From Candidatus Margulisiibacteriota bacterium (GTDB lineage: Bacteria > Margulisbacteria > Riflemargulisbacteria > GWF2-39-127): a stretch of DNA of 50,626 bases. The stretch is taken from assembly GCA_003242895.1 (NCBI GenBank), contig QKMY01000048.1, positions 1 to 50,626 on the forward strand, in the 5' to 3' direction. A program made the position numbers and the translations under genes. Under the pieces are notes generated by a model. That model was not told where the DNA came from. It searched no databases and worked only from the letters and a program-made list of their open reading frames with translations. Positions 33,607 through 43,788 of this stretch are shown one piece after another (the first letter of the stretch is position 1; every line of letters starts with the position of its first letter).

Positions 33607-35205
33607 TTAGGAGGGCTTCTTCCTTAGCTTCAATATTAAGGTTGCGCCCTGGTCAGGAGTGCTTTTTACGGTTATGTCCCCGCTATTTGGTGCTAGTCTT
33701 ACTGTGTCTCTGATCCAGCTCAGTCCTATGCCGCTGGAGCCGGAAGTGGAATAGCCCAGATCGAATATCTTATTCTGGTGTTCCTGCGGTATTCCTTTAC
33801 CATTATCGGCAAATTCCAGTAGAAAATAGTGTTCGTTAAGATCGCGGGCGGTTATTGTGATCGATGGAGCGCTCGTTGCTGAGAGTGCTGCAAAAGCATT
33901 CGTGTAGAGATTAGAAAGAATTATTACTAACGTGTTCATGGGTATTGCCGGATAGATCGTATCCGGAAAATCGCGATTAACAATCCCGCTGAAGACGCCA
34001 AGTACGCGTTTGGCTGCTTCTGCCTCGGCTTCAATAAGAGAGTATCGTTCATTTCCGGCGGACTGGGCCAAGGTCCCTGATAAGGCATAGGTGCTTTTTA
34101 TTTCGTTAAGCATATCCTTGATCCGTGTGCCAAGCGTAGCTGTCGCCTCTTGCAATATCTCCAGACAGAACGATATGTATTCATCTTTTGCGACATCACG
34201 AGGCAGCTTCCTGGCCAGGTTATTGGTAAATGCCTCGATTTGCCCAAGCGGGTTCTTGAGGTCATGCGCACAACCGGAAATGGACTGGCGCATGGATTCC
34301 AGAACTGACATACGCTGAAGCTTTTCTTCGAGTACAGCCTGTTTCTCCTGGAACTCAAGATGTTTACGGTAGTTGTAGTAACGGATAAACAGACCCCCAA
34401 CAAGGGTAATGATAATGTACTTGTAGATTTGGGGAATTGGCAAAAGATCATTGATTATCCAGAGACAGATAAGGGAAATCAGGAAAGGGATGGTATAGTC
34501 GGCTGTTTTTTTGATAACTACTTTGATATCCATGAGCTGATGCTTTAGGATGGCGTATGTAATTATTGATACCATAAATAGAGAATTATAGGGGCCTACC
34601 CAGACATATCTATAGTTACCAAGTAAGATCAAAATCAGATTAAAGTACATTCCTATAGAATATGTACCGATGGTTGCAATGAGCATGTACAGTAGTTGGT
34701 TTTTAAATATCCCGGATGCCTTAAGCATTTTTACGAAAAGTATACCAACTGCTGCGCCCGAATAGGTCACATACCACAAACCATAAAATGGGTAGAGATA
34801 TCCCAAAATACTTTCTTTGCCCCAAGTTCTCATAATAATATCCCTAATAAAAGCATTTGGAATGAACACGAGGAATGAAGTTAAAACAGCTGGCAAATGT
34901 AATAGTAGAGTCTTTAGAGGATTTAATTTTGTGCCAGTGAAGACCAAAGTAAAATGCAAAAAAGTAGTAGCAATAAAGGCAGCAGCAACGATAAATTCTC
35001 TATTCCAGAACAAAGCTTGAGTAAAATTATCAACCAACCGGAACATTAGAATGCCGAAAGACCACAAGCTGACAAAGACCGCGCATAAAGCGAAGATAGA
35101 GTCGATACTTTTCTTTGCCGACTTCCAAGCGATAATGCCTGCTAAGATTAAATCCAGAACTAAAGAAAAAGAAAGAAGAAGATTAATGGATAAATTTGTA
35201 AGCAT
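33607..35205 (-). CDS. Histidine kinase with N-terminal 7TM-type sensor
   Basis: 532 residues. Seven or eight membrane segments (residues 5-275) resemble the HisK-7TM sensor region, including ITYAILKHQLMDIKVVIKK. A short coiled coil leads to the dimerisation and phosphotransfer helix SGCAHDLKNPLGQIEAF with His314. The ATPase domain has the N box (SNLYTNAFAAL), G1 (FADNGKGI) and G2 (GSSGIGLSW). It starts 13 bp after the methyltransferase stop with no clear ribosome site, so translation is probably coupled. The gene order, methyltransferase then membrane kinase, recalls phcB-phcS, so it may sense a fatty-acid-derived signal; this is inference. A truncated copy of its ATPase segment lies at 36305-36852. 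Confidence 0.92.
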   Translation of the reverse strand: MLTNLSINLLLSFSLVLDLILAGIIAWKSAKKSIDSIFALCAVFVSLWSFGILMFRLVDNFTQALFWNREFIVAAAFIATTFLHFTLVFTGTKLNPLKTLLLHLPAVLTSFLVFIPNAFIRDIIMRTWGKESILGYLYPFYGLWYVTYSGAAVGILFVKMLKASGIFKNQLLYMLIATIGTYSIGMYFNLILILLGNYRYVWVGPYNSLFMVSIITYAILKHQLMDIKVVIKKTADYTIPFLISLICLWIINDLLPIPQIYKYIIITLVGGLFIRYYNYRKHLEFQEKQAVLEEKLQRMSVLESMRQSISGCAHDLKNPLGQIEAFTNNLARKLPRDVAKDEYISFCLEILQEATATLGTRIKDMLNEIKSTYALSGTLAQSAGNERYSLIEAEAEAAKRVLGVFSGIVNRDFPDTIYPAIPMNTLVIILSNLYTNAFAALSATSAPSITITARDLNEHYFLLEFADNGKGIPQEHQNKIFDLGYSTSGSSGIGLSWIRDTVRLAPNSGDITVKSTPDQGATLILKLRKKPS

Positions 35206-35218
35206 ATTTTATTTTAAA

Positions 35219-36223
35219 CTATTTTTGTAAGTGCAAATAAATATTTGCTTTTGTTTTTTCGTCAAAAAAAGTATGCTTTTTTGAGTACCCAGCCCCGTCA
35301 GAAAGTCCGATTAATTGTTCTTGACCTCTATAAATCAGTTTCCAGTCACAAAGAAATTCTATATTAATTTTATTAGGAATATTTTTTTCAACGTTAGTTA
35401 TGAGAAATATTCCATCATTATTCAAATAATTATACATACTATTGATTACTAATTTAGCTATTTTATCATTTAAATAATCAAAAAGACCGAAGGAGTATAT
35501 GAGGTCAAACTTAGGCAGGTTAAGCCTTTTCAAATTTTTAACAAGACTTAATATATTCATATGTAAATATGTAATAGAGATATCAGGATTCAGGTATTGA
35601 TCAAGCTGATTTTTTACAAATTCAATAGCCTCACTTTCCATGTCATTAAGATATATTTTTGCTTTAATATGTTTTTCTTTTAACAACTCGATAATTTCTT
35701 TAGCGGGGCCACATCCAAGTGATAAGATACAAAGCGGTTCGTCGCTAGACATATTATTTAGATATTCATTAAAATAACTTTCTCTATTAATATGGGCCTG
35801 TGAAGCGGGGATAGAACTAGTATATCTGTTTATAAGCATTTCAAATAAATTGCCTCCCAGATAATCATTAAGATAGAAGTAGTGAACAACTAGATAGTCA
35901 CCATCATATCCTAACGGTTTATCATGTATCCTTTTATTAAGCGGACCTATATTAAATAACTGATCTAGTAACAGATCTCTGGTAAACTGCTTGTATTTTT
36001 GGTATGCTTCCTGGTTATTTAATATATGCGGCTGAGCAATATCCCACATTTTTGATAAATAAGAGTCAATATCATTGTATATTTTCGGTGCAATACTGTC
36101 TAAATAGCGTTTTTTCTCCTCAATACTTTTATACTGACTATTTTCCTTGTCTAGCTTTATTTTTAATTTATTTAAGTATGTATGGAATTTTCTGCATATA
36201 TATGTGTATTCCAATGTTATCAT
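35219..36223 (-). CDS. SAM-dependent methyltransferase, PhcB-like candidate
   Basis: 334 residues. A helical N-terminal half (about 1-160) carries KPLGYDGDY (102-110) and PASQAHINRESY. A class I methyltransferase core follows with SLGCGPAKE (168-176), IYLNDMESEA and DLIYSFGLFDYL. From memory, the GY.GDY motif before the methyltransferase core is typical of proteins annotated as 3-hydroxypalmitic acid methyl ester biosynthesis (PhcB type). A signal-producing role fits the membrane kinase directly downstream. The gene is strikingly AT-rich (about 30% GC by eye) compared with its neighbours, suggesting transfer from elsewhere. AGGAG lies nine bases before ATG 36223. Another methyltransferase function cannot be excluded. 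Confidence 0.8.
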   Translation of the reverse strand: MITLEYTYICRKFHTYLNKLKIKLDKENSQYKSIEEKKRYLDSIAPKIYNDIDSYLSKMWDIAQPHILNNQEAYQKYKQFTRDLLLDQLFNIGPLNKRIHDKPLGYDGDYLVVHYFYLNDYLGGNLFEMLINRYTSSIPASQAHINRESYFNEYLNNMSSDEPLCILSLGCGPAKEIIELLKEKHIKAKIYLNDMESEAIEFVKNQLDQYLNPDISITYLHMNILSLVKNLKRLNLPKFDLIYSFGLFDYLNDKIAKLVINSMYNYLNNDGIFLITNVEKNIPNKINIEFLCDWKLIYRGQEQLIGLSDGAGYSKKHTFFDEKTKANIYLHLQK

Positions 36224-36304
36224 GTGGTTTGCTCCTCATTAACTAATTATCGTTAAATTCATTATATCAACTCACCCAGGGATTACACTAGCATTGCACA
36301 TAAT

Positions 36305-36852
36305 TCAACCCCTCAGCCGTACTGTATCTCTGATCCAGCTCAGTCCTATGCCGCTGGAGCCGGAAGTGGAATAGCCCAGATCGAATATCTTATTCTGGTG
36401 TTCCTGCGATATTCCTTTACCATTATCGGCAAATTCCAGTAGAAAATAGTGTTCGTTAAGATCGCGGGCGGTTATTGTGATCGATGGAGCGCTCGTTGCT
36501 GAGAGTGCTGCAAAAGCATTCGTGTAGAGATTAGAAAGAATTATTACTAACGTGTTCATGGGTATTGCCGGATAGATCGTATCCGGAAAATCGCGATTAA
36601 CAATCCCGCTGAAGACGCCAAGTACGCGTTTTGCTGCTTCTGCCTCGGCTTCAACAAGAGAGTATCTGTCATTTCCATCGGACTGGGAAAAGGTCCCTGA
36701 TAAGGCATAGGTGCTTTTGATCTCGATAAGCATATCCTTGATCCTTGTACTGAGAGTAGCTGTTGCCTCTTGCAATATCTCAAGACAGAAGGATATATAT
36801 TCATCTTTCGCGACATCACGAGGCAGCTTCCTGGCAAGGTTATTGGTAACTG
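36305..36852 (-). pseudogene. Truncated duplicate of the histidine kinase
   Basis: Bases 36320-36852 align without gaps to 33700-34232, the part of the kinase encoding NNLARKLPRDVAKDEY through WIRDTVRL. The copy lacks the membrane sensor, the phosphorylatable His box and the last part of the ATPase domain, and it ends in RG-stop. It begins six bases after the stop codon of the response regulator, where a full-length kinase partner would be expected. It is the remnant of a kinase gene broken by recombination. Confidence 0.9.
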
Positions 36853-36858
36853 CTGAGG

Positions 36859-38061
36859 CTATGCCTCATACCCGGCAGCGATAATATGTTGTTCGCCACT
36901 TAGGATACGGTTTAATTCATCATCTTTTAACGTTCGATCATTTCTCCGGTTATTCTGGTAGAGTGCTTCCGCTTTCATTGCGCCAGAATCTATTCGATAT
37001 TGAATCCATCCTTTTATCCAGTGACATTTTTCATAGTATAAAGCTAAAAACAATTTATAAGATTCGGCTGAAAAATTTGTTTCTGATCTTTGCAGCATCA
37101 ATTGTATTGTCGGAATAACCTGAGCATAATTATCAATTAATTTTAAGGTTCCGTTTGCTTTGGCGAGGATTGCCGGGCCAAGGTTCTCGGTCTCGAATGG
37201 AGAATATATAGATATGCTTATTCTCGGGTCATGTATCTTTGCCTGCCATAAAGGATATAGCGCATTGAGCGGATCAGCAGCGATCATGATCCCGGCTATC
37301 TTGGATGTTTTTAATATCCGTAGAAGTGATTGCTGATCATCTGCCATATGAGCTACTATGCCTGATTGTTGAAGCTGTATTTGCAGCTCGATCATTTCTT
37401 TTTTGTTAAAACCGTAGAGCAGAATATCTTTGTGTCCAACCCCTAGCGATGGACAGCCAGCCCAACTATGTTTTATTTGGGGAACGGAATCTTCAATGTG
37501 CTTGATATCTGATAGGTAGACAGGAGGCATAAAGAAACTTTTGAGCATGGACTCTGTTGTTAGTTCGGCAGCTATTTCGCTATGCAAAATACTTTCGATT
37601 AAGGCAGCTTTTTCCCTCCCGTCCACATAAGAATTAATAAGATTTTCTCCAGGGGAAGAAAAATTGCAATATAATTCGGATAGATGGACCTTGTCATCCA
37701 GGGCGACCTGTATCCTTTTTAATATTTCTTCTTCGCTGCTTTTCTTCTCAATATACCATTTGGCGCCATAGTTGAAGCATTCATCAACAATTGACAGAGC
37801 ACTTACGCAGGTGATCATTACTACTTTTATTCCCGGCTGTTGTTTGACAATTTCTTTAAGTATCCCATGCCCTTGAAGCTTTGATCCCTCAAGTCTTATA
37901 TCCAGCAAAACAAGGTCAAATTTGTTTTCCTCGATTGCAGCGAATGCTTCATCAGAATTGCGGGCATTTATAACCTCGTATTCTCCTTTTAATATGTAGG
38001 TAATATGTCCAATCCAAGCCTTCTCATCTTCAACCAGAAGTATTTTTCTTTTATCAGCCAT
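36859..38061 (-). CDS. Response regulator with a second, degenerate receiver-like domain
   Basis: 400 residues. The N-terminal receiver has the acidic pair Glu11-Asp12 (LLVEDEK), phosphoacceptor Asp54 (LVLLDIRLEG), Thr84 (VVMITC) and a Lys in WYIEKK. Residues 211-320 (KDILLYGFNKKEMIELQIQL, GIMIAADPL, ISISIYSP) follow a receiver-like strand-helix rhythm but lack the acidic pocket, so they look like a pseudo-receiver. No DNA-binding or enzymatic output domain is recognisable. It overlaps the upstream XRE gene by one base (TAATG) and precedes the broken kinase copy. It may signal through protein contacts, perhaps with the XRE regulator. Confidence 0.85.
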   Translation of the reverse strand: MADKRKILLVEDEKAWIGHITYILKGEYEVINARNSDEAFAAIEENKFDLVLLDIRLEGSKLQGHGILKEIVKQQPGIKVVMITCVSALSIVDECFNYGAKWYIEKKSSEEEILKRIQVALDDKVHLSELYCNFSSPGENLINSYVDGREKAALIESILHSEIAAELTTESMLKSFFMPPVYLSDIKHIEDSVPQIKHSWAGCPSLGVGHKDILLYGFNKKEMIELQIQLQQSGIVAHMADDQQSLLRILKTSKIAGIMIAADPLNALYPLWQAKIHDPRISISIYSPFETENLGPAILAKANGTLKLIDNYAQVIPTIQLMLQRSETNFSAESYKLFLALYYEKCHWIKGWIQYRIDSGAMKAEALYQNNRRNDRTLKDDELNRILSGEQHIIAAGYEA

Positions 38062-38513
38062 TACTTTCCCTCCTTAAGATAATGTTTTATTGCAAAATCG
38101 ATAGTATTCTCAAGAAAATTTTTTAATTCCAGATCGCTTATTTTGGCAATATTCTTTCTTATTTCTTCCAGCGGATCAGGTGGAATGTCTGTAACTGTCG
38201 GACCTTTTCCATTGATTATATTGTCAAAGACCGGCAGAGCTCTTTTGAGCCAGCGCAGGGCTTTTTTCCCTCTGTTTTTTTCATATTGATCATACGTTCT
38301 TTGTAGCAGCAACTCAACGAACTCAATTTCACTCAAATCAAAAGCCTTGGCAAATAATTCTATTTTTTCGTCAGATAGCTGCTTTCCCTTCTGTTCCAAT
38401 CCGGAAGCGAATGTCAGGCTGCACCCGAGCTTTTCTGCAAGCAGCGAGTAATTAAGCCCCTTTTTTTTTCGGTAGTATTCGACATATTGCGCAAATGATG
38501 AAAAATCTAACAT
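38061..38513 (-). CDS. XRE-family helix-turn-helix regulator
   Basis: 150 residues from ATG 38513 (MLDFSSFAQYVEYYRKKKGL). The HTH is NYSLLAEKLGCSLTFASGLEQKGKQLS (helices about 20-50). The C-terminal half is helical and unrecognised (ALRWLKRALPVFDNIINGKG, LKNFLENTIDFAIKHYL). The start was chosen because a -10 box TATAAT ends six bases before it, predicting a leaderless or nearly leaderless message; longer in-frame starts lie inside the promoter and its repeats. Two 13-bp direct repeats upstream are likely operator sites, perhaps its own. It is the first gene of the leftward regulator cluster. Confidence 0.78.
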   Translation of the reverse strand: MLDFSSFAQYVEYYRKKKGLNYSLLAEKLGCSLTFASGLEQKGKQLSDEKIELFAKAFDLSEIEFVELLLQRTYDQYEKNRGKKALRWLKRALPVFDNIINGKGPTVTDIPPDPLEEIRKNIAKISDLELKNFLENTIDFAIKHYLKEGK

Positions 38514-38519
38514 ATTTTC

Positions 38520-38547
38520 ATTATACCCAACCAAATGATTTTGTAAA
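38520..38547 (-). promoter_or_regulatory. Promoter giving a predicted leaderless XRE transcript
   Basis: On the minus strand TTTACA (38547-38542), a 16-bp spacer and a perfect TATAAT (38525-38520). The first base of ATG 38513 is only seven bases from the end of the -10 box, so transcription should begin at or next to the start codon. Confidence 0.6.
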
Positions 38548-38567
38548 CCATTCATTACTAAACGGAT

Positions 38568-38606
38568 TATTTCGATGCAATTTATTGTCAATATATTTCG
38601 ATACAA
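38568..38606. promoter_or_regulatory. Paired 13-bp direct repeats, likely operator
   Basis: TATTTCGATGCAA (38568-38580) and TATTTCGATACAA (38594-38606), 26 bp apart. They lie in the divergent region between the XRE gene and the CheY-like genes, about 20 bp upstream of the XRE -35 box. The phasing, about 2.5 helical turns, puts the sites on opposite faces of the helix. The XRE protein or a response regulator may bind here. Confidence 0.6.
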
Positions 38607-38671
38607 TGTTATAAGAAATAAACCAGCCAGTTGAGTGGTTTATGTGGATGATAGATGAGAGGAGTAACGAG

Positions 38672-38821
38672 ATGAAGCTATTAATAATCGATGATGATGA
38701 GAGAGAAATAATCGCTCAGTTGGTACGGCAAATAACAAAGAAGAGTGCACAGCTTGAGGCGACACAGGAAAAAGTCTATGGGAAGCCACAAAGTAGTCTA
38801 TACCAAGGAGTAACGAGATGA
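38672..38821 (+). CDS. Short receiver-derived peptide (decayed response regulator start)
   Basis: 49 codons starting MKLLIIDDDEREIIAQLVRQ. The ribosome site GGAGTAACGAG and the first ten codons are almost the same as those of the CheY-like gene at 38818, so the start was duplicated. After the DDDE acidic cluster the sequence departs from a receiver, and the reading frame stops in an ATGA overlap with the next start. It is probably a decayed copy or a leader peptide coupled to the CheY-like gene. There is no evidence of function. Confidence 0.55.
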   Translation: MKLLIIDDDEREIIAQLVRQITKKSAQLEATQEKVYGKPQSSLYQGVTR

Positions 38822-39192
38822 AGCTGCTAATAATCGATGACGATGAGATGGTCAGAAGCACATTACGGTATTTTCTTCAAAATAACTATGAGGTATATGA
38901 AGCCGGGAACGGAAAAGAAGGGCTAGAGGTACTTGCAAGGGAAAAGATTTCTCTGGTACTTCTCGACTATCATATGCCGGGCATGAACGGGATCGAGACG
39001 CTGCTGCTGATCAAACGTGATCACCCAGGAGTGCAGGTGTGCATGATGAGCGCGGAACATATTCCCTATTTCCGTGAATATGCCTTGTCTTATGGTTCGT
39101 ATGATTTCATCCGAAAACCGTTTGATTTAGACGAGGTAAAGGCGGTCCTGAAAAATATGGAAGAAAATAATGCGAAAGGAGCGAGTTTATGA
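38818..39192 (+). CDS. CheY-like single-domain response regulator
   Basis: 124 residues, a stand-alone receiver domain. The acidic cluster is IIDDDE (Asp7-Asp9), the phosphoacceptor Asp51 lies in LVLLDYHMPGMNG, a Ser follows in VCMMSAE, and Lys lies in IRKPFD. AAGGAG stands seven bases before the ATG. It has no output domain, so it would act by binding a partner. It is in a compact cluster: a duplicated start before it and a 53-residue gene overlapping its stop (ATGA). It is transcribed away from the XRE and response-regulator genes. Confidence 0.92.
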   Translation: MKLLIIDDDEMVRSTLRYFLQNNYEVYEAGNGKEGLEVLAREKISLVLLDYHMPGMNGIETLLLIKRDHPGVQVCMMSAEHIPYFREYALSYGSYDFIRKPFDLDEVKAVLKNMEENNAKGASL

Positions 39193-39599: not shown

Positions 39600-40391
39600 A
39601 TGGATATCTGCCAACTATTAAACATAAAAAACTGGTTCATTCACGGGAAATCAGAAACCGCCAAAAAAACAAGCACCTGCAGTGGAGGTGCCCTTGCCAG
39701 TGCAAGCACCCTATCATCGAAAAACATCAGATCAGATGATATGCTCTCATATCTCACTACTGCGAAGCTCGTACCTCTGAGCAGCGGGACATCAACACTG
39801 AGTAGTTCCTACCTCATAGCGATGAGCGGAGATACCAGAATTGCAAATAATAATACTGATCCGAATGGACAGACAAAAGAATATATCAAACAACAGTACA
39901 ATGAACTGCTGCTCGCCTATAAGCTCGACAATAATGGCAGAAGCTATATCAAGGATCCGAGAGATCAGATAACCTCAGAAGGCATGACCTACTGGCTCTA
40001 CCTGACAGCCCGTATGGCCCAGCTCGACCCGGTAAATGCCAGTCAGTACAAACAGGTCTTTGATTCACTGCTCGCCGGGGTGGAAAGCATGATTGACCTG
40101 GCACGCTCAGAGAATAATAGCGGGGCATTTCCCGCCTGGAAAGTACAGCTTAGCAACGGAACACTAGCTCTCGTCTCTGACCAGAATGGGAAAACAGCCA
40201 ATTCAGCCGCTGATGCTGACCTCGATCTGATCCGGTCATTGATCGCTGCCCGGAACCTGGTAGCATCCGGTGTTTGGTCGGACAATAATTACGGGGCTAA
40301 AGCCAGGGCATTGATCGAAAGTGCTAGTTATGGAGAGAAGTCCTTGTTGCAGGATGATCCGTGGCTATTCAACCACCCAGGAAGAATTTGA
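39600..40391 (+). CDS. GH8-like glycoside hydrolase domain, 5' part of a frameshifted gene
   Basis: 263 codons before a frameshift. The sequence resembles the alpha/alpha-barrel GH8 (cellulase/chitosanase) family: ITSEGMTYWLYLTARMAQ around the expected general acid Glu, FPAWKVQLSNGT, and NSAADADLDLIRSLIAARNL containing the Asp-rich block, followed by NNYGAKARALIES. At DDPWLF the frame changes: this reading ends NHPGRI-stop, while the +1 frame continues STTQEEFDCAVTALTKG into the rest of the protein. There is no signal peptide at the N-terminus (MDICQLLNIKNWFIHGKSE), consistent with C-terminal RTX-type secretion. GGAGAAGATAAA precedes the start. It may be a true mutation, an assembly error or recoding. 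Confidence 0.65.
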   Translation: MDICQLLNIKNWFIHGKSETAKKTSTCSGGALASASTLSSKNIRSDDMLSYLTTAKLVPLSSGTSTLSSSYLIAMSGDTRIANNNTDPNGQTKEYIKQQYNELLLAYKLDNNGRSYIKDPRDQITSEGMTYWLYLTARMAQLDPVNASQYKQVFDSLLAGVESMIDLARSENNSGAFPAWKVQLSNGTLALVSDQNGKTANSAADADLDLIRSLIAARNLVASGVWSDNNYGAKARALIESASYGEKSLLQDDPWLFNHPGRI

Positions 40392-43300
40392 TTGTGCGGT
40401 CACTGCCCTGACCAAAGGTATCAACGGGCACTATACCGAATCCAAAGAAATGGACACTGCCATTTACTTGCCCCTGGCCTATGCGGTTGGCGATAATGGC
40501 AGTATGGATAAAATGACTGCTGATATCAGCAGCAATGTCATACCCAAAGACAACTATTTTTCACGAACTCTTATACTAATGGGATTGATGAGTAGCGTAT
40601 TTCCCGTCAGAGAAATGGCAGGGCGAACGATCAGCCCGGAAAAGGCCGGATTGTACCAGCCGCTACCGATGAGCGAGGCTAAGCTCAAGGAAGAGTTGTC
40701 CAGGCTCAAGGTCAGAGTCGATGGACAGACAAATGATCATGGAAAAATAACTCCTGACTGGTTACCGGGTTATGTGGAAATGGGCAAGGTATTGCTGAAA
40801 TTGCTGACAGGAAGAAATATTCCTGGCGGTATCAATCCGGTACCGGCAAGCTGGGTCTATGACAACGGGGCATGGACAGATAGGGTAGAAATAAACTATA
40901 TTAAGAAGCTCAAAGACAATAACTGGAGCCTGATCGACCATTACCCGACAAGCAAGGACGAAGCGCTGTCCATGCTGGATAAGTTCGCTCCTAAACTCGT
41001 TCCTGAGGTGCCTGCCCCGACACCTATTCCGGTGCCCACTCCTATACCGACCACAACACCAGTTCCTACTCCTCAACCAAACCCCATCACTCAAATACAA
41101 ACGATGGTAACAAATCTTAATCAGAGCAACCCAACACTGGCGATACCTTATAAAAATAGTTATAGTGAAAACGAAAAAGAACTTATAAATCAGCTTAATA
41201 AGTTAGGCTATAATGACCGTCAATCGTTAGTATTTGATAATTTGCTATCGCTTTGGAGTGGCGTTGATAATTGGAATTTAGCCACCAATTCTAATCTCGT
41301 CAAAACGATACCAAGCAGCACAGACAAAGACAATGTAAAAGAGATTGTCGTTGATACTGCCGGTCAAACAATCGGGTTCATGAATTCCGCGCTGGGAGAA
41401 TTCTTGGAAAATGCCAAAGGCTTGAATACTGCATCGAAAAAGATTGTTATCAGAGCTTTTAAGACTAAGGAAATATTAGCAGTTGCGACCTTAACCTATG
41501 CCGGCAAAGAAGACAAATGGGACGCGACAGTTACTTTTGCAGAAGGACTGGCAATCGGGAGTCTCATTAATGACCCCTTGATCAAATGCTTCGGTCTATG
41601 GTATGGGACATTAGCCTCATTAACCGTACAATATGGATCTGGTCCGCTATATACGTACCTTAACAAAAAAGCAATTGCCTATAATAATTATCAGGACAGC
41701 ATGGCATCATGCGTTGTCGAATTGCAAGACAGGGTCCTTGTGAACTGGAAAGATTGTGAGCAGATGCAACCTTTTGTCACGAATTTTCGTAACAATAACA
41801 CTAAACTGTTGCAGCTCGAAACCCCAACAGCTATTTACTTGTACGGCTCGCTGAAATCCGATACTGATCAATCGCTGGAAGTAGAGACCAAAACAGGAAA
41901 GAAGACCTATATCTACGGAGGTAAAGGGATAAACAAAATTATAGTCCAGGGGGTCTCCATCGAAGATGTTTTTATAGAGGGCGGTAATAAAAACGATATT
42001 ATAAACGGAGGCGGTAGCGGGAAAAATAATATAAATGGCGGTGGAGGTGAAGATACTCTCATTGGAGGCAAACAAGATGACATTCTTAATGGTGGAGACA
42101 ATGACAATGCTGATGATATACTAACTGGTGGGCTAAGAAATGATTCTTATCAGTTCAGTGGAACCTGGGGAATCGATGCAATCGTTGATGCCAGAGATGA
42201 CAATGGAATTCAAGAAGGAACAATCCAAATTAAGGATAGTAATGGGATATTTAAGCAACTAGAAGTAGGCCAAACTGAGTCCGATCTTATTCATAATAAA
42301 AAAATAAAAGATTCGGACAATACTACCTATTTATTAAAGTCCAATAATGACCTTGAAATACAGGTCGGGGGCAATTCCAGGAAAGTAATCTTAATTAAAG
42401 ATTTCAAGAACGGAGACCTGGGCCTTACCTTCAAAAAAGCTGCAAACGATAAGTCGACGGTCTGGAATGGGTTCAATTTTTCTTTCATCGATTGGAACAG
42501 CACTCAATATACCTCATTTGATGAGTTCAAGCTTGCTTTTGAGGGAGGGGCTTTCGGGAAACAAGGCCTGGCATCTGTGCTCACGTCATTACCGAAACTC
42601 GACCTTGAGCAGTACCTCACAGACCTTTCCTTTGACCTGCCCAAAGGAATTAACTGGAAAACCCTCGATCTAAGTTTGTTCGGGACTGATATAACTCAGG
42701 AGTTCATTAATTCACTGGGTACCACATTTTCCAGATTGAAAGATTCGTTCCCCTCGGTCTCCGCGCCTACTTCTGAATTGCATATTAATAAATACAAAGC
42801 TGATTATGGACAGGTGAAGATCGGGAATACCGACTATGCGCTGGATGTATCAAATGAATTGGATGACCTATGGAAAGATAGCGTAAAAGGCACGCCGCTG
42901 GAAGGTTTTAGCGGCAAGGAATTCTTTGCGATGATAAAAAATCCTCAAAATATAATCGATAACAACATTAAAGACAAATTAGCTTATATGATATCTAATA
43001 CTACCGGGCTCAATGTTTCTGTCTCATCGGGAATCGTCAATATTATCACGTCCAAAAATATTAGCGAAGCGACACGTGAAACGCTGAAACAAATAGCTGT
43101 AGCTGAAGGAGTCAAGTATTTATCTCAAGCTACCGGAATTCCAAGTATAGAAATTGAAATAACCTCAATAGTAGTTCCTGCCCTGATAAATAAGAGTATT
43201 GAGATGTATAATGCGATAAGTTTCTACTGGAAAATAGGAGAAATAATCAAGAAATTTGTAAAAGACGGCGGTATTAACTATTTTTTATATAAGCTTGAAC

Positions 43301-43788
43301 GAAAGCTCGGCAATCCGGCAGGATTCAGTACGCTGGAAATAATGGAAAAAGTAAAAAATGGAGGAGGAATATTCTGGGAATATGCGTTAATGCAGCGACT
43401 CAAGCCTCTCTATAGCAAAGAAGCCCAAATTGAGATAACAAAGGCACGCTATGAACCGGATATAAAATCCTATAAAAATAACATAGACGCCTATGAAGAT
43501 GCTATCAAAAAAGGGTTCCATCAAGTAATAATGTACTATGAGTGGAAACAGGTTAATGGGCGATACCAATATGTAAGCATTACCAAACAAGAATATGACA
43601 AAAAAATTAAAGAAAAAAACAGAAATGTCTCCGGCCAATATCAATGGGTAGATAAAGAAGGCAAGCTTGCCGCCTACTATATCCCGAGTCCAAGTAGTTA
43701 TGAAAATAGTAAGTATTTTTACAGTGTCAAAAAAGCACAATTAGATGCTGAGATAAACAGTATCCTTGCCGATAAGGATAGCAAATAA
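40321..43788 (+). CDS. Very large RTX-type calcium-binding protein, 3' part of frameshifted gene
   Basis: The coding match begins near 40370; the nominal ATG at 40321 has no ribosome site, so this is the continuation of the gene starting at 39600 (about 1,395 residues in total). It completes the hydrolase-like region, then has a Pro-rich linker (PAPTPIPVPTPIPTTTPVPT), a region with hydrophobic segments (about residues 340-460), and RTX nonapeptide-like repeats at 41980-42130 (GGGGEDTLIGGKQDDILNGG). An RTX-associated segment (VILIKDFKNGDLGLTFK) follows, then a long C-terminal region ending in a Lys/Tyr-rich helical tail. RTX proteins fold on calcium outside the cell and usually leave by a type I system, but no such system is in this window. 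Confidence 0.7.
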   Translation: MLVMERSPCCRMIRGYSTTQEEFDCAVTALTKGINGHYTESKEMDTAIYLPLAYAVGDNGSMDKMTADISSNVIPKDNYFSRTLILMGLMSSVFPVREMAGRTISPEKAGLYQPLPMSEAKLKEELSRLKVRVDGQTNDHGKITPDWLPGYVEMGKVLLKLLTGRNIPGGINPVPASWVYDNGAWTDRVEINYIKKLKDNNWSLIDHYPTSKDEALSMLDKFAPKLVPEVPAPTPIPVPTPIPTTTPVPTPQPNPITQIQTMVTNLNQSNPTLAIPYKNSYSENEKELINQLNKLGYNDRQSLVFDNLLSLWSGVDNWNLATNSNLVKTIPSSTDKDNVKEIVVDTAGQTIGFMNSALGEFLENAKGLNTASKKIVIRAFKTKEILAVATLTYAGKEDKWDATVTFAEGLAIGSLINDPLIKCFGLWYGTLASLTVQYGSGPLYTYLNKKAIAYNNYQDSMASCVVELQDRVLVNWKDCEQMQPFVTNFRNNNTKLLQLETPTAIYLYGSLKSDTDQSLEVETKTGKKTYIYGGKGINKIIVQGVSIEDVFIEGGNKNDIINGGGSGKNNINGGGGEDTLIGGKQDDILNGGDNDNADDILTGGLRNDSYQFSGTWGIDAIVDARDDNGIQEGTIQIKDSNGIFKQLEVGQTESDLIHNKKIKDSDNTTYLLKSNNDLEIQVGGNSRKVILIKDFKNGDLGLTFKKAANDKSTVWNGFNFSFIDWNSTQYTSFDEFKLAFEGGAFGKQGLASVLTSLPKLDLEQYLTDLSFDLPKGINWKTLDLSLFGTDITQEFINSLGTTFSRLKDSFPSVSAPTSELHINKYKADYGQVKIGNTDYALDVSNELDDLWKDSVKGTPLEGFSGKEFFAMIKNPQNIIDNNIKDKLAYMISNTTGLNVSVSSGIVNIITSKNISEATRETLKQIAVAEGVKYLSQATGIPSIEIEITSIVVPALINKSIEMYNAISFYWKIGEIIKKFVKDGGINYFLYKLERKLGNPAGFSTLEIMEKVKNGGGIFWEYALMQRLKPLYSKEAQIEITKARYEPDIKSYKNNIDAYEDAIKKGFHQVIMYYEWKQVNGRYQYVSITKQEYDKKIKEKNRNVSGQYQWVDKEGKLAAYYIPSPSSYENSKYFYSVKKAQLDAEINSILADKDSK

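Follow-up and report, generated by a model that had tools for sequence, protein, structure and literature searches.

The window, meaning here the whole stretch of DNA analysed (50,626 nucleotides from a Candidatus Margulisiibacteriota bacterium), carries on its minus strand a run of genes for a methyltransferase, a membrane histidine kinase, a response regulator and an XRE-type protein, with a receiver gene diverging from it. The features are as follows:

33607..35205, minus strand: 7TM sensor histidine kinase of 532 amino acids, candidate sensor (HisKA_7TM, E 5e-15; HATPase_c, E 2e-16)
35219..36223, minus strand: PhcB-superfamily class I SAM methyltransferase of 334 amino acids, candidate signal synthase (Methyltransf_31, E 4e-9)
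36305..36865, minus strand: truncated copy of the catalytic core of the kinase, corresponding to its residues 321-505 (93% amino acid identity)
36859..38061, minus strand: response regulator of 400 amino acids (single Response_reg, E 2e-20, with a 270-residue extension)
38061..38606, minus strand: XRE-type DNA-binding regulator (ORF of 181 amino acids; HTH_3, 1.5e-6; probable start near 38513)
38818..39192, plus strand: response regulator with a single receiver domain, oriented divergently to the module (Response_reg, 3e-25)

The kinase gene is the last of the module. The methyltransferase ORF ends 13 nucleotides before it, and the genes for the REC regulator and the XRE protein, which overlap at start and stop codon, lie upstream of the methyltransferase. 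The four principal ORFs, their strands and the 13-nucleotide gap had all been described in an earlier note on this DNA, and ORF and Pfam analysis confirmed them. Beyond the module, positions 38660-38848 hold a 43-nucleotide direct repeat (93%) with two receiver-gene starts inside, the first of which resembles a remnant. Further on, 39600-43788 contains a pair of overlapping ORFs, not in the same frame, that read as a single broken protein; GGxGxD-type RTX-like repeats occur in the second, and neither has a Pfam match.

The methyltransferase falls within the superfamily that contains PhcB. As PhcB reference we used a Ralstonia pickettii locus (L074) authenticated by residues named in the literature, all of which it has: PhcB R22, PhcS L161 and PhcQ R154 (PMC6989110), and PhcS H230 (PMC11960443). 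Homology to the window protein extends across the methyltransferase domain (R. pickettii PhcB, E 6e-24, 26% identity; Cupriavidus necator PhcB, E 3e-25), with 22-26% identity to PhcB across the aligned family. The link to PhcB proposed in the earlier note is thereby borne out. The motifs KPLGYDGDY and LSLGCGPAKE are both present; KPLGYxGDY is common to the PhcB and window-protein families, and K102, P103, G105, Y106, G108, D109, Y110 and 20 more positions are invariant between the window protein and the PhcB set. The window enzyme aligns from about residue 130 of PhcB, whose set measures some 460-500 amino acids, and has no counterpart of the N-terminal extension.

A search of 55 genomes found homologues in nine; one of these is the window's own genome, and in the rest identity is about 30%. 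A homologue on a Paraburkholderia plasmid, with the gene order methyltransferase-kinase-regulator-regulator, led in a genome scan to Ralstonia, Cupriavidus, Janthinobacterium and others (53-92%). The phcB loci were retrieved by the pattern KPxGY[APD]GD[YF], derived from an alignment in which the window protein was included. A 34-sequence tree places PhcB in a clade of its own (100/100), with the window sequence outside it, and thus does not group the window enzyme as a PhcB orthologue. It lies nevertheless on PhcB's side, amid the sequences of its phylum and with weak internal support, on the opposite side of a strongly supported branch from rhizobial-type members without kinases. A single clade of the phylum's 12 methyltransferase sequences is not rejected (p-AU 0.27).

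Among the wider superfamily, an Enterobacter ludwigii plasmid (L016:3790-6927) encodes a polyketide synthase with a C-terminal KPxGYxGD methyltransferase domain behind a carrier-protein-like stretch, and one member lies three genes away from a fatty acid desaturase. Members from rhizobia and their relatives have no adjoining kinase; rhizobial and Roseateles plasmid members (L157, L158, L015) are divergent to GGDEF/EAL proteins, with no kinase alongside. Viral contigs yielded one distant homologue, a KPxGYxGD methyltransferase (27%) on an IMG/VR contig of 4404 bases (L167) that may be host DNA.

The AlphaFold2 model of the methyltransferase (mean pLDDT 88.5) retrieved generic class I folds only from the PDB, the top match being an uncharacterised protein (3ocj, TM 0.56-0.62), and such a fold search does not fix the substrate. 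NCBIfam holds no specific family for the protein, BioC and other matches being far below cut-off. Matches of the family profile in the PDB include the carboxyl methyltransferases CheR (5ftw, 4e-6) and juvenile hormone acid O-methyltransferase (2e-4), an enzyme class that would fit a signal synthase.

Within the window's phylum, the methyltransferase gene is directly followed by a same-strand 7TM histidine kinase gene in 8 of 12 loci; the remaining four comprise one broken kinase, one convergent kinase and two contig ends. Stop codons interrupt the kinase sensor at locus G029:C54. The eight intact pairs are separated by -4 to +25 nucleotides, often with a 4-nucleotide overlap, and their sensors are all 7TM. 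The pairing is therefore kept in distant relatives, as the earlier note's proposal demanded. In Pseudomonadota, 19 of 299 genomes have a methyltransferase homologue, and a kinase lies within 1.5 kb in three of the 19 loci, exactly the three phcB ones. Kinase coupling thus stands at 10/12 in the phylum against 3/19 in Pseudomonadota (Fisher p 5e-4, to be taken as indicative and not as an exact probability, because the loci are related). Adjacency alone is not proof, since there are several other 7TM kinases whose preceding gene is an ordinary housekeeping one (NAD synthase, TsaD, IspD).

7TM domains occur in 56 of 74 genomes of the phylum, and sixty further regions were chosen by 7TM match, not by methyltransferase. 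Proteins encoded directly upstream of 7TM kinases have methyltransferase Pfam matches in 10 of 52 cases, pre-chosen loci counted in. Within the 7TM-selected loci, the upstream neighbour is a methyltransferase in at least 7 of 44 cases; among other ORFs the count is at most 2 of 117 (p 0.002). The 7/44 figure is our own reckoning and depends on the share of the ten Pfam matches that belongs to pre-chosen loci. Directly upstream of 7TM kinases there are also two KAS III enzymes, a thioesterase, UbiE-type methyltransferases and housekeeping genes and, in four genomes, a LuxD-type acyltransferase (Acyl_transf_2, best 4e-29) fused with a methyltransferase domain. The window's own genome has a second 7TM-kinase module, in which an acyltransferase gene overlaps the kinase gene and is followed by genes for a two-REC regulator, a REC protein and an XRE protein. 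These loci are:

L224:2743-5838, L225:2364-5216, L226:2985-5219 and L227:1863-4514: LuxD-type acyltransferase/methyltransferase fusions upstream of 7TM kinases
G000:C58:76170-81206 (L190:6171-11207): second module of the same genome, with GNAT/FeeM-like acyltransferase (FeeM, 2e-4, below Pfam's cut-off), 7TM kinase, two-REC regulator, REC protein and paralogous XRE protein

It is possible, though we put it forward tentatively, that the phylum holds modular lipid-signal cassettes, in which varied acyl- and methyl-transfer enzymes (PhcB-type methyltransferases, LuxD-acyltransferase/methyltransferase fusions, KAS III and FeeM-like acyltransferases) each precede their own 7TM kinase, and in which sensors and cores are swapped between cassettes.

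The module resembles the Phc system of Ralstonia and Cupriavidus (PhcBSRQ, PhcA) in its homologous methyltransferase with KPLGYxGDY and a shared core, in the multi-spanning membrane histidine kinase gene that directly follows it, here after 13 nucleotides, and in a REC regulator in which no DNA-binding domain is recognised. In other features the two differ. The methyltransferase, at about 22-26% identity, is without the PhcB N-terminal extension of roughly 130 residues; the sensor is a 7TM domain (PF16927) and not the PhcS membrane domain, PF16927 being absent from PhcS and the window 7TM region having no significant similarity to PhcS (best E 0.11). Downstream of the kinase there is neither a PhcR-type REC-kinase nor PhcQ, the extension on the upstream REC protein is of another kind, the regulator and XRE genes stand upstream of the methyltransferase, and the phylum is another. 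We therefore reject the identification of the module as a Phc system, on sensor family, regulators, N-terminal extension and gene order relative to phcBSRQ.

The product of the Phc system is methyl 3-hydroxymyristate or methyl 3-hydroxypalmitate. Its regulator PhcA belongs to the LysR proteins, which are so widespread that only an orthology test would make them diagnostic. The Lqs system of Legionella (LqsA-LqsS-LqsR) follows the logic of synthase, membrane kinase and regulator, with a PLP-dependent synthase, LqsA, that is not a methyltransferase. The window module shares this general logic but has no LqsA-type PLP synthase, and the link is rejected by enzyme class, the candidate synthase here being a SAM-dependent methyltransferase. 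The initial label of a Phc/Lqs-like module is accordingly not supported. The window sensor scores above Pfam's cut-off for HisKA_7TM (PF16927); this is a domain family rather than a defined system, and in the window it comes paired with a PhcB-type methyltransferase, in a kinase without the region of weak GAF matches found in some linked relatives.

The response regulator (36859-38061) had been thought to carry two receivers. One REC domain is detectable, and neither Pfam nor profile comparison finds a second in residues 130-400, where a single-sequence AlphaFold2 model, too weak to decide the matter, has a low-confidence beta-alpha repeat. The extension (residues 131-400) has no Pfam or PDB match and no relatives in the 74 phylum genomes or the plasmid collection. 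The XRE protein has a paralogue in the second 7TM-kinase module of the same genome (L190:10590-11207; 41% identity, E 1e-33). A REC-only regulator is often convergent to 7TM kinases in the phylum and is 38-79% identical between loci (L224:101-607, L262, L279, L278 and others); it is likely to be a common partner of these kinases. A close copy is absent from the window, where the divergent receiver at 38818-39192 is about 30% identical to REC-only regulators adjoining other 7TM kinases and its relation to the module is uncertain.

The homology to PhcB, the genetic coupling to 7TM kinases conserved across the phylum and the domain content are directly supported, and from them we infer that the coupling reflects a relation of synthase and receptor. 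The methyltransferase would make a small, probably lipid-derived, carboxyl-methylated molecule, presumably the methyl ester of an acyl chain, which would leave the cell; the 7TM domain of the downstream kinase would sense it; and the kinase would pass phosphate to the REC regulator at 36859-38061, which together with the XRE DNA-binding protein would provide the output. That the locus is a signal-synthase and sensor-kinase module is, on balance, probable, and a lipid-type signal is its most likely form; that the product is specifically a 3-hydroxy fatty acid methyl ester is doubtful. The logic of synthase plus sensor, already put forward in the earlier note, is supported because superfamily membership and conservation of the pairing both held.

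An unlikely alternative is a metabolic role: the methyltransferase would produce or alter some ordinary lipid or polysaccharide precursor, and the kinase would regulate that pathway or simply share an operon with it. Polysaccharide genes do adjoin the module, at about 10-33 kb, and superfamily members without kinases exist, as a C-terminal domain of a polyketide synthase and near a fatty acid desaturase. However, the polysaccharide genes converge end to end on the kinase, with no shared promoter, none such were seen beside the modules of relatives, and it is the 7TM kinase that is conserved alongside the methyltransferase. The large exopolysaccharide locus invoked earlier is real, but support for its control by the module goes no further than proximity, and the genes are convergent.

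Somewhat less probable still is a role of the methyltransferase as a CheR-like adaptation enzyme, which would methyl-esterify the kinase or another protein and tune its sensitivity, with no diffusible signal. CheR is the best solved-structure match of the family profile and also a weak Pfam match, and adaptation, too, would account for the constant link with a membrane kinase. However, PhcB belongs to the same superfamily, has a comparable neighbour and yields an ester that diffuses (PMC8578825, PMC11960443); a CheB-type methylesterase was not seen next to the methyltransferase, and the fusion to a LuxD-type acyltransferase at four other 7TM-kinase loci points to acyl chains.

The kinase has the look of a chimera. 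The 7TM sensor is 46% identical to that of its nearest paired relative, L017 (BLAST, 50% over 239 amino acids, E 1e-78), whereas the catalytic cores of the two share 24%, and the window core is 21-29% identical to those of the other linked kinases. Among the latter the core is the better conserved part in every pair (core 32-50%, 7TM 22-42%), a pattern that the window kinase reverses with respect to its nearest relatives. It is also shorter, through want of the linker region in which some relatives have weak GAF matches, and its core has no close relative in the phylum genomes or plasmid collection. This suggests a fusion in which the 7TM sensor came from a kinase linked to a methyltransferase and the catalytic core from another kinase. 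One very long branch leaves the kinase-core tree without resolution, and support for the fusion therefore comes from the identity pattern, the absent linker and the duplicated core. The donor was possibly a kinase that once followed the XRE-regulator pair and of which a fragment remains. Fast divergence of the core may be an alternative to such a splice.

That fragment, between regulator and methyltransferase, was missed by the earlier note, which otherwise had the genes and their placement right. It matches the kinase gene over 534 nucleotides at 95.3%, of which the distal 300 are 99% identical, most mismatches lying in the proximal part. Uneven divergence of this kind is the pattern that partial gene conversion would give, and the near-identity of one part implies that the copying was recent or that the copies were homogenised. 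The duplicate is probably non-functional. An assembly error could be another explanation of the match between 36305-36865 and 33695-34230. Given the duplication debris and the very divergent core, the module may be in transition. Least probable of all is that it is decaying or non-functional in this genome, a product of recombination that carries a fragment of a kinase and a mismatched core: the duplicated fragment, a core at 21-29% to linked kinases that are 32-50% identical to each other, and the stop codons at the related locus G029:C54 would agree with this, but the methyltransferase and kinase frames are intact, the methyltransferase motifs and kinase H-box are kept, and part of the duplicate is nearly identical.

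In the literature, our search, of incomplete coverage, found no PhcB-type signalling placed outside Burkholderiales, and a 2026 review names no lineage beyond Ralstonia and close kin for methyl-ester signalling (PMC13220807). Because the pairing recurs across the phylum, the locus may represent a cell-to-cell signalling module with parts unlike those of the known one. If this is true, a conserved PhcB-superfamily enzyme would work with a different sensor family in another phylum, the chemistry would be older than supposed or would have been reinvented more often, and 7TM histidine kinases would gain candidate ligands.
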